The notes under the pieces were generated by a model. The model was not told the origin of the DNA. It saw nothing but the letters and a program-made list of their open reading frames with translations, and searched no databases. From positions 722,106-786,105 of the forward strand of contig CASDWE010000002.1 in the NCBI GenBank assembly GCA_949284685.1: a DNA stretch of 64,000 nucleotides. Direction: 5' to 3'. The stretch's first letter is position 1. The number at the start of each line of letters is the position of its first letter. Shown here piece after piece: positions 20,295-23,105 of this stretch. Made by a program: the position numbers and the translations under genes. Source of the DNA: an uncultured bacterium. GTDB lineage: Bacteria; Bacillota_I; Bacilli_A; RFN20; CAG-826.

Positions 20295-20548
20295 AATTCA
20301 CCCGTCTTTATAATCAAGTAAACCTGTATTTTTTTGCTAAAATATCAATTTTAACTTTGCAAAATATAAAAACATTCAAAGTTAATTTGATTTTTTAATG
20401 TTGAAATAAAGATATGATGAATTAGATATAATCTAATTAATATTATAACAATTTTTTTCTTTATTTATGTTTTAACAAGCAAATTTATTTCATTTTATAT
20501 AATTTTCCAATAAAATGTCTTACGTATTTGTTAATAAGGTGAAAGGGT

Positions 20549-21073
20549 ATGGATGATAAAGAACTTTTAAGTAAACTTCTAATACGCCTACAAAACGATG
20601 ATATGTCAGCGTTTGATGATTTCTACAATTTAACAAAAAAAGCAGTCTATTATGCGATTTATGTTGTTTTTAGAGATGATCACATCAGTCAAGATCTCAT
20701 GCAGGAGACTTACATCGATTTTTTAAATTATCGCCATAAGTTAAAAAAAGATGTTGATATCATTGCTTTTTTAGTCACAAGTGCTAAAAACAAGGCAATA
20801 AATTTCTATAAGAGACGTCGTCATGAAAAAGAATATACATTTAAGTACATTAATGATTCTTATTCAAATGATGAAAAAATTGAAAGCGATTTAATAGATA
20901 AAATTAAAGATATTCTTGATGAAAAAGAATTTATGGTCTTCATTTTAAAAGTTTTGGGCGATTATACTTTTAAAGAAATTTCTCTTTTAAAAAATATACC
21001 AGTTGGGACACTTACATGGTTATATAGTCAGGCAAAAGATAAATTGCAAATAAAATTAGGAGGTTATCAATGA
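20549..21073 (+). CDS. ECF-type RNA polymerase sigma factor
   Basis: A 174-residue sigma-70 family protein. Region 2 covers about residues 15-92 (ISQDLMQETYIDFL for 2.2, then TSAKNKAINFYKRRRHEKE). Region 4 covers about 115-170 (DEKEFMVFILKVLGDYTFKEIS, then IPVGTLTWLYSQAKDKL). Region 3 is lacking, as in ECF sigmas. It heads a three-gene unit: its stop overlaps the next ATG (ATGA), and the neighbour is a single-pass membrane protein, the usual position of an anti-sigma factor. A TATAAT at 20498-20503 precedes it. Confidence 0.87.
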   Translation: MDDKELLSKLLIRLQNDDMSAFDDFYNLTKKAVYYAIYVVFRDDHISQDLMQETYIDFLNYRHKLKKDVDIIAFLVTSAKNKAINFYKRRRHEKEYTFKYINDSYSNDEKIESDLIDKIKDILDEKEFMVFILKVLGDYTFKEISLLKNIPVGTLTWLYSQAKDKLQIKLGGYQ

Positions 21074-22128
21074 TGGATGAACGAAAATTACGTCAAGATA
21101 TTTTAAGTAGTTTAGATTCAAATAAAGTAGAAAATCTTTCTGTACAAATTTTAAATACTTATAAGACATCTAAACACGAAAAGAAAACACCTTGGTACAA
21201 AAATAAAGCTCTATATTTTATTGGTTCTCCTATTCTTGCTAGCGGTGTTGCACTTGCCATTGTTTTGCCTTTAACTATGCATGGTAATAATTCAAATATA
21301 TTGCCCCCAATAAGCGGTGATTATGTGCCAGTTACTATTCAAGGAGAAGAAAACGAAATTGCTTTTAGTGTTTTAAGTGCTTTTAATATCGTTTCAAGTG
21401 ATAACAACAAAATTTCACCTTTATTAAAACGACGAATAAGTGAAAATGATTTTAAAGAAAATATAACTTTATTAAATCCTTACATGTCAACATCAGAAAC
21501 AATGCTAAAAAATAATCTTGATGTTAAACCAACGATTTATCAAATTACCGACCCAGCATCAAAATGGGAATATCAAATGAGCATCGATGATCATGGTACA
21601 ATCATTGAATTTTATTATAATCAAACTGATATTACTGATGTCGATGAAGACGACGATGAAAAGGAATATCGTTTAGACGGTCAATTTATTGTCAATAGCA
21701 CTGTTTATCATGTCAGTGGTGGAAAAGAATTAGAAGAAGATGAATACGAATTAACATTAAAAGTAGAATTAAATAGTAATTCTTATTTGTTGATTGAACA
21801 AGAAGTTGAAACCGAACAAGACGAGCATGAAGAAAGCTATTTATATTCATTATACGAAAATAATCGTCAGCAATTTTTAGTAGAATTATCTTTTGAGCAA
21901 GAACAAAACGAAGAAAAAGTTGTTGAAGTCAAAATAGAACAAAATCGTAAAGAAAGCGAATATTGTATAATGTTTTCTCAAGATCCTAACCACGATTTTA
22001 TAATGAGTTATGAAATGGATGATGAGGAAGGTTTAATCGATATCGATGTGATAGAACAATCAAATGAATCATATTATCAATATATCGAAAAAAATCTTGG
22101 ATATATTATCCAATTAAAAAGAAATTAA
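21070..22128 (+). CDS. Single-pass membrane protein, putative anti-sigma factor / sensor
   Basis: A 352-residue protein. About 50 cytoplasmic residues (MMDERKLRQDIL, then LSVQILNTYK) precede one membrane helix near 53-77 (IGSPILASGVALAIVLPLTM), followed by a ~270-residue outer domain. The coupling to the ECF sigma gene and the topology suggest an anti-sigma factor, though no ZAS zinc motif is present. The outer domain is clearly related to that of the lipoprotein encoded next: both have EYR-x-DG, two residues, then VN, and later KEL-x2-DEYE, a Y-x4-EQE patch and strongly acidic stretches. Function is inferred from context only. Confidence 0.65.
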   Translation: MMDERKLRQDILSSLDSNKVENLSVQILNTYKTSKHEKKTPWYKNKALYFIGSPILASGVALAIVLPLTMHGNNSNILPPISGDYVPVTIQGEENEIAFSVLSAFNIVSSDNNKISPLLKRRISENDFKENITLLNPYMSTSETMLKNNLDVKPTIYQITDPASKWEYQMSIDDHGTIIEFYYNQTDITDVDEDDDEKEYRLDGQFIVNSTVYHVSGGKELEEDEYELTLKVELNSNSYLLIEQEVETEQDEHEESYLYSLYENNRQQFLVELSFEQEQNEEKVVEVKIEQNRKESEYCIMFSQDPNHDFIMSYEMDDEEGLIDIDVIEQSNESYYQYIEKNLGYIIQLKRN

Positions 22129-22189
22129 AAAAATTCCAACAAAAATTAATTCTTAGTTGTTGAATAGGTGAAAAAGGAGAATTAAACTT

Positions 22190-23062
22190 ATGAAACAACT
22201 TAAAATCTTACTTCCAGTATTAGCAATCGGCATGTTAACTGGCTGCCAACTCAACAATAATGATAACCTTTCAACCAACAATCAAGGTGGTGGAATTACA
22301 CAAAACGATAGAAACGTTTACGCTTTTGAAGCTATCACATCTGTTGGATTATTAACTACATTAGATACAAATCAAACTGTCCAACCAATTAAAAAAGCCG
22401 CTGCAGATGAAACATTAATAAGTCAAATTAAAGACTATTTACCAACTGTAGAAGCTGCACTTTATAATCAAAGTCTAATGACTAATAGTGAAGTATTGCC
22501 TTCTGATCGCGATGAATATCAGACGAAAGTTTTAATTTCTTATACTGATATAGCAATGGCTAATCAAAGCATTACAATGTATTATAATGAAACATTAATG
22601 CAAGATTATGATGACGATGATGATTGGGATGATCAAGAAGAAGAATATCGAATTGACGGATTAATTATTGTTAATGAAAATGAATATAAAATGTTCGGCG
22701 AAAAAGAATTGGATCGCGATGAATATGAAATATCGTTTACCTATCAAGTTGATGAAGATAGTTATGTTAAAGTAGAACAAGAAATTGAAAATAATGAAAG
22801 TGAATTCAACTATACTGTTATAAACAACAGAAGAAAAGTATATGAATATAGTTTAGAAATCGAAAATGATGAAGTTGAATTAGAAGTTAAAGATCGCAAT
22901 CTTGGTGTAGAAAAGATGGAATTTAAATTCATTAATCGAAATAATAAAACACTTATCATTGCTGAAATTAGAAAAGCAAGCCAAAAAAGCGAAATTGTTT
23001 TTGAAAAAGTAGTGGACGCACAAACAAATACAATTGATTATGTTGTAATTAGTAATTCTTAA
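22190..23062 (+). CDS. Lipoprotein with the same outer domain as the upstream membrane protein
   Basis: A 290-residue lipoprotein. Signal peptide with lipobox LTGC and lipidated Cys19, then an Asn/Gly-rich linker, then an acidic beta-rich domain. That domain shares its motif order with the preceding protein: AFEA and AFSV at the start, MYYNET versus FYYNQT, EEEYRIDG versus KEYRLDG, and KELDRDEYE versus KELEEDEYE. It matches no family I know. The sigma/membrane/lipoprotein order suggests a sensor pair, the lipoprotein perhaps binding its membrane paralogue or a shared ligand. A good ribosome site (AAAAGGAGA) and a strong terminator flank it. Confidence 0.7.
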   Translation: MKQLKILLPVLAIGMLTGCQLNNNDNLSTNNQGGGITQNDRNVYAFEAITSVGLLTTLDTNQTVQPIKKAAADETLISQIKDYLPTVEAALYNQSLMTNSEVLPSDRDEYQTKVLISYTDIAMANQSITMYYNETLMQDYDDDDDWDDQEEEYRIDGLIIVNENEYKMFGEKELDRDEYEISFTYQVDEDSYVKVEQEIENNESEFNYTVINNRRKVYEYSLEIENDEVELEVKDRNLGVEKMEFKFINRNNKTLIIAEIRKASQKSEIVFEKVVDAQTNTIDYVVISNS

Positions 23063-23080
23063 TAAATAAACAATATCTAA

Positions 23081-23105
23081 CCCCACTTAGTGGGGTTTTC
23101 TTTTT
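23081..23105 (+). terminator. Terminator of the sigma-factor operon
   Basis: CCCCAC (23081-23086), 3-base loop, GTGGGG (23090-23095), then TTTTCTTTTT. The strongest hairpin in the region. Confidence 0.93.

Follow-up and report, generated by a model that had tools for sequence, protein, structure and literature searches.

A predicted ECF sigma factor loop of Bacilli in which a membrane sensor and a lipoprotein under sigma control carry homologous outer domains

The window, i.e. the whole stretch of 64,000 nucleotides that was analysed, belongs to a gut bacterium of the class Bacilli with a genome of 1.1 Mb and about 27% G+C. Three adjacent genes encode an ECF sigma factor, a single-pass membrane protein (T) and a lipoprotein (LP). 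With a probability of roughly 0.55 these genes form a self-contained ECF signalling loop, in which T would be the anti-sigma factor and sensor, and LP would be induced by the sigma factor, bind the same ligand as T and exert feedback.

Organisation of the sigma-T-LP cluster

The genes, their signals and the segments of T were located as follows.

20505..20535, + strand: putative ECF-type promoter of the sigma-T operon, TTCCAATAAAATGTCTTACGTATTTGTTAAT, with -35 CCAATAAA and -10 TGTTAAT; intergenic, about 17 nt before the ATG
20549..21073, + strand: ECF sigma factor gene, 174 aa, sigma2 and sigma4 only
21070..22128, + strand: gene of T, single-pass membrane protein of 352 aa; ATGA overlap with the sigma gene; homologues beside sigma across the class
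21070..21207, + strand: cytoplasmic segment of T, residues 1-46; helices 2-13 and 20-34 predicted (AF2, low confidence)
21208..21276, + strand: transmembrane segment of T, about residues 47-69, from a hydropathy scan of the sequence
21277..22125, + strand: ectodomain of T, predicted by AF2 to have helices 94-108 and 125-148 followed by a long antiparallel strand meander; homologue of LP
22134..22164, + strand: putative separate ECF-type promoter of LP, TTCCAACAAAAATTAATTCTTAGTTGTTGAA; intergenic, about 29 nt before the ATG
22190..23062, + strand: gene of LP, lipoprotein of 290 aa with the lipobox LTGC and Cys19; paralogue of the T ectodomain
23079..23105, + strand: intrinsic terminator of the whole cluster, 8-pair stem, 3-nt loop and T-rich tail

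The sigma factor scored 31.3 bits with PF04542 (cut-off 24), 57.4 with TIGR02937 (cut-off 42.9) and 24.6 bits with PF08281, just below the cut-off of 25.7. Its shortness and the presence of sigma2 and sigma4 alone are those of an ECF (group IV) sigma factor. It accounts for one of three sigma region 2 matches in the window genome. A second ECF sigma gene of the same genome (L032:2-1794; genome G000, contig C1) was accompanied by its own overlapping single-pass partner of 416 aa, which was not assigned to the T family.

A preliminary description of this DNA had the sigma gene overlapping the membrane protein gene (ATGA) and one terminator serving all three genes. Both statements are correct, as are the coordinates and the gene structure. 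The stem-loop occupies 23079-23097 with T-rich DNA next to it, and no terminator was found between the sigma, T and LP genes. The T and LP genes are 61 bases apart, and the three genes do not depend on one promoter only, LP having a second, predicted ECF-type promoter of its own.

Homology of the T and LP ectodomains

In the window T and LP were aligned by BLASTP with an E-value of 2e-13 and 28% identity over 267 columns, and hhalign of the two family alignments yielded a probability of 99.9 and an E-value of 8e-33. Ordered motifs had been recognised in both outer domains at the outset, and the likeness is indeed far above chance by both methods: EYRLDGQFIVN, KELEEDEYE and YYNQT of T correspond to EYRIDGLIIVN, KELDRDEYE and YYNET of LP. 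The profile and structure comparison that had been proposed as a check thus returned homologous ectodomains with a matching order of predicted secondary structure. AlphaFold models built on relatives gave T and LP two helices and then about 14 antiparallel strands in the same order; as each model alignment mixed T and LP rows, this likeness follows in part from the sequence homology. The T model (m3fabe7e02e57) had a whole-protein mean pLDDT of 71.9 with 10-residue means of 74-94 for residues 121-352, and the LP model (m375316ea2f40) had a mean pLDDT of 76.9 and a pTM of 0.73.

Neither protein had a convincing Pfam or NCBIfam family or a PDB sequence match. Foldseek produced no clear match to a solved fold, the best E-values being 0.016 for LP and 0.061 for T. 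The VIA-align results were not convincing for a known fold either, with outer-membrane barrels and other beta proteins on top at Z-scores of 8-9.5 and an rmsd above 5 A. For LP we considered RseB in particular: the MucB/RseB Pfam domain did not match LP, Foldseek did not go beyond the E-value of 0.016 and the best VIA-align Z-score was a middling 8.8 at 6.7 A. Acidity was discarded as a clue to the ligand because it is not distinctive, the net charge per 100 aa being -13.8 for the T ectodomain, -13.2 for LP and -12.5 for other lipoproteins of the same loci.

Distribution of the trio and exchange of ectodomains

A search with T gave matches in 36 of 95 relatives, some of them LP genes. Among 392 genomes sampled across the phylum the T/LP family was present in 66, all of one class; this class limit is not firm, as the records of L052 and L056 are titled 'uncultured Clostridia'. 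A collection scan was run with a narrower alignment, alignment A2 being too diverse. The non-redundant loci had the order sigma-T-LP in 34 cases and LP-sigma-T in 8, with some loci holding only part of the set, several of these from the ends of contigs or fetched stretches, and with L016/L046 and L029/L122 left out of the counts as GC-rich loci where the ORF caller preferred antisense frames. A search for the trio in relatives, which the preliminary description had called for, therefore revealed conservation across the class Bacilli in two gene orders. Sigma-T operons without a linked LP were seen at L018 and L022, and some genomes carry LP without linked sigma and T (e.g. L037 and L051). Upstream of the trio in one sub-lineage (L040, L043 and L045) lie genes resembling, by eye, a potassium-uptake pair and a methylglyoxal synthase, a neighbourhood not kept elsewhere.

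In trees the T and LP labels were strongly clustered with 8 changes versus about 40 in shuffles. T and LP were mostly separate within the order, and they were intermingled in one family. Across the class a single T clade was rejected with a p-AU of 2e-6, the obvious exception having been left out, although this statement is limited by long branches and a quick tree method. A clean ancient split of T and LP was ruled out on this result. The earlier proposal that the outer domains arose by duplication is thus right as to duplication, but one clean ancient event does not describe it.

The sensor ectodomain of L125 (L125:1726-4140, genome G065) scored 217 bits against its own LP with 50-57% identity and 64 bits against the best other T, and its cytoplasmic part is of the T type (E 4.6e-9). 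The locus is best read as an exchange of the ectodomain between sensor and lipoprotein; it is one clear case and is independent of the tree. From these sequences the T and LP ectodomains appear to have been re-matched sometimes in evolution.

An ECF-type promoter motif and the predicted regulon

The upstream regions of sigma and LP have in common the motif CCAAYAAA-N14-YGTW, which is AAC/CGT-like and constant in spacing. Within 150 bases upstream it was found at 24 of 34 operon-leading sigma genes (shuffle expectation 0.10) and 36 of 53 LP genes with linkage to sigma or T (shuffle expectation about 0), the expectation being 0.1 or fewer in every gene group. In the same interval it was found at none of 51 T genes, 10 sigma genes behind LP and 166 other ORFs. 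Because the motif was derived from some of the counted loci, the differences among the gene groups weigh more than the counts as such. The strict motif is absent before about one third of the linked LP genes. It was present at 3 of 15 LP genes without linked sigma or T, at least one of these loci (L026) being a short stretch only. Because unlinked LP occurs, mostly without the motif, LP can plausibly have a role outside the loop. Upstream of one such LP a sigma70-like promoter (L037:4893-4922, TTGACT-18-TATGTT) replaces the ECF motif, as if loss of the sigma factor had been followed by rewiring of the gene; a match of this quality is close to what chance would give, and L051, examined in a similar way, had none.

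AAC and CGT boxes, a co-transcribed anti-sigma factor and autoregulation are features of ECF systems (PMC8103513). At the level of the sequence autoregulation is indicated here by the AAC-like -35 and the CGT-like -10 of the sigma factor's own promoter. Sigma and LP appear to be driven by the same sigma-type promoter, which puts LP among the predicted sigma targets.

The size of the regulon was gauged with a relaxed form of the motif. Of its 19 matches in the window genome 17 were inside ORFs, and the intergenic ones were those of sigma and LP alone. Because all other matches are coding, a large regulon was rejected for this motif. The direct targets predicted here are sigma-T and LP alone, and LP is probably the main, perhaps the only, sigma target in this genome. 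Genome G043 has a sigma-T operon without an adjacent LP (L022); a strict motif match elsewhere directly precedes a lipoprotein gene, which turned out to be an unlinked LP member (E 3e-30 with the LP profile). The scan of the window genome and this recovery of LP by way of the motif are more independent tests than the motif counts. In G193 sigma and LP are unlinked with the motif before both.

Further strict matches in 11 relatives (20 regions) were mostly coding. G043 has two back-to-back motifs in a divergent intergenic region (L173:1-1870) between ferric-reductase-like membrane genes and a gene of a cytochrome-b5-like exported protein. These genes are possible extra targets and may hint at a metal or redox signal. 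In G014, with a sigma-T operon lacking LP, the motif is 42 nt upstream of an MgtC-family gene (L172:687-1436). In G065 a strict motif precedes a gene that looks by eye like one for a tRNA synthetase, and in G051 a further one precedes the genome's own sigma gene. Judged by the motif, several genomes are predicted to have a loop that is close to minimal, and a few to have a larger one.

T as a candidate anti-sigma factor

The cytoplasmic domain of the T family has a median length of 47 aa, and its N-terminal segment is basic. No T cytoplasmic domain of the family contains Hx3Cx2C or two cysteines, in line with the initial remark that an anti-sigma zinc motif is missing. T is therefore not of the zinc type of class I anti-sigma factors, and nothing but this type is excluded. 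The missing motif says little because about 44% of class I anti-sigma domains are devoid of it (PMC7406223). Class II anti-sigma domains are short as well (PMC7406223); next to the CnrY type, which is helical, under about 50 aa and wraps around the outside of sigma, T has its median of 47 aa and two helices predicted with low confidence. In Pfam searches with window T and family members the cytoplasmic domain matched no known anti-sigma family. Window T had no Pfam match at E-values up to 10. DUF4179 was matched neither by window T at this limit nor by family members at E-values up to 1, and the RsgI_N domain was found in none of them.

The overlap with the sigma gene, the single-pass topology, the constant neighbourhood and a cytoplasmic segment that is basic and about 47 residues long make T the probable anti-sigma factor; T is probably the sensor as well. 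A site-2 protease family (PF02163) is present in the window genome. PrsW was considered as site-1 protease of T and dropped, as six genomes yielded no match.

Discussion

In the loop that we infer, the short cytoplasmic domain of T would keep the sigma factor inactive, and the ectodomain would sense an extracellular ligand or a condition of the envelope. Inactivation of T, probably by regulated intramembrane proteolysis, would set the sigma factor free to transcribe its own operon and, from the second promoter, LP. LP would present a T-type ectodomain on the outer face of the membrane, where it most likely binds the ligand of T. As an effector it may capture or shield, and with less free ligand the loop would be turned off. 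More tentatively, at a little short of an even chance, we propose that LP, equipped with the sensor's own ligand-binding domain, is the main output of the sigma factor and titrates the signal, and that selection for identical ligand binding has repeatedly exchanged ectodomains across the class.

LP could instead be a co-sensor, which binds T via the common fold as a hetero-oligomer and keeps T inhibiting until the ligand removes LP, as RseB does for RseA. Linkage and paralogy of T and LP are compatible with this, an interaction surface would also lead to re-matched ectodomains, and there are precedents in the operon-encoded RseA-RseB (PMC8103513) and the lipoprotein CseA (PMC6767563). Yet LP is kept in genomes without a linked T, and T occurs without a linked LP (L018, L022). 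Furthermore, the predicted inducible promoter of LP and the unlinked copies suit an output better than a stoichiometric subunit, and we regard a co-sensor as unlikely. Because LP has its own promoter, exists in unlinked copies that bear the motif and persists without linked sigma-T, we favor an output over a fixed subunit. Lipoproteins are often found in ECF regulons. LP may thus be a plain surface effector of an ordinary ECF/anti-sigma pair, the likeness of the ectodomains being inherited and their ligands no longer linked. The identity of 28% in the window and the mostly separate positions in the tree within the order would agree with that, but without a common function it is difficult to account for the re-matched ectodomains and for a pair conserved throughout the class, which leaves a plain effector doubtful. 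The re-matching is also the reason why we favor a common ligand of T and LP.

A very improbable reading is that T is a positively acting receptor, or a bystander transcribed along with the sigma gene, and that the sigma factor is set by its expression level or by another partner. It draws on the lack of a recognised anti-sigma domain and on the short cytoplasmic segment with its low-confidence model. The overlap with sigma, the adjacency across the class, the single pass and the basic N-terminal segment speak against it, and the predicted autoregulation and the layout fit the standard ECF/anti-sigma pattern (PMC8103513). The preferred reading has T as anti-sigma sensor and LP as its induced output.

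The linkage of a sensor to its own lipoprotein paralogue, as first described, is upheld by the linkage of T and LP and the homology of their ectodomains. According to that description, a sensor that pairs or competes with this paralogue would be a new kind of ECF control. We consider the trio a variant rather than a wholly new kind because a sensor that resembles an output has a precedent: the GH10 domain of RsgI6 of Clostridium thermocellum is 57% identical to Xyn10D (PMC4711584), the nearest such case. RsgI-SigI combines an anti-sigma ectodomain homologous to an output-related protein with an autoregulated sigma factor, as the trio is predicted to do. RsgI is cleaved within the membrane by RseP (PMC12203970). 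RsgI systems differ in their many targets and in domains whose catalytic or carbohydrate-binding nature is known. The trio has no RsgI_N match; its strand-rich ectodomain is without a name, the lipoprotein paralogue is linked, the regulon is predicted to be near-minimal and ectodomains have been exchanged.

Among anti-sigma factors that cross the membrane once and act as receptors, RsiV of the RsiV-SigV system of Bacillus subtilis comes nearest to T. RsiV is an anti-sigma factor and lysozyme receptor subject to site-2 proteolysis, and its transmembrane/amphipathic segment is DUF4179 (PMC6066255). Unlike RsiV, T has no Pfam match, and the trio adds a paralogous lipoprotein under predicted sigma control. 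The nearest extracytoplasmic partners to LP are RseB and CseA. To our knowledge, RseB is not homologous to the periplasmic domain of RseA, whereas the ectodomains of T and LP are paralogous. Otherwise RseA-RseB-RpoE of Escherichia coli resembles what is predicted for the trio: it is autoregulated, and the operon of its single-pass anti-sigma factor also encodes an extracytoplasmic partner (PMC8103513). In Streptomyces coelicolor the sigE operon likewise includes a lipoprotein, CseA, which dampens the response (PMC6767563); unlike what is predicted for the trio, this system lacks an anti-sigma factor and SigE does not act on the sigE promoter, nor has CseA been reported to be a sensor paralogue. 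We found no description of the sigma-T-LP trio in the open-access literature, and any claim of novelty is limited to that scope.

The trio would be a little-known wiring of a common type of bacterial signalling, in that a sensor seems to induce a protein resembling itself. Because the window genome has three sigma region 2 matches only, extracytoplasmic signalling in small-genome gut Bacilli may run mainly through this circuit. What is gained is an unnamed domain family, a defined promoter motif with which regulons of uncultured lineages can be predicted, and a case, open to direct testing, in which a sensor would induce the paralogue of its own ectodomain. Such a case would bear on how sigma circuits with one signal and nearly one gene evolve and shut themselves down.
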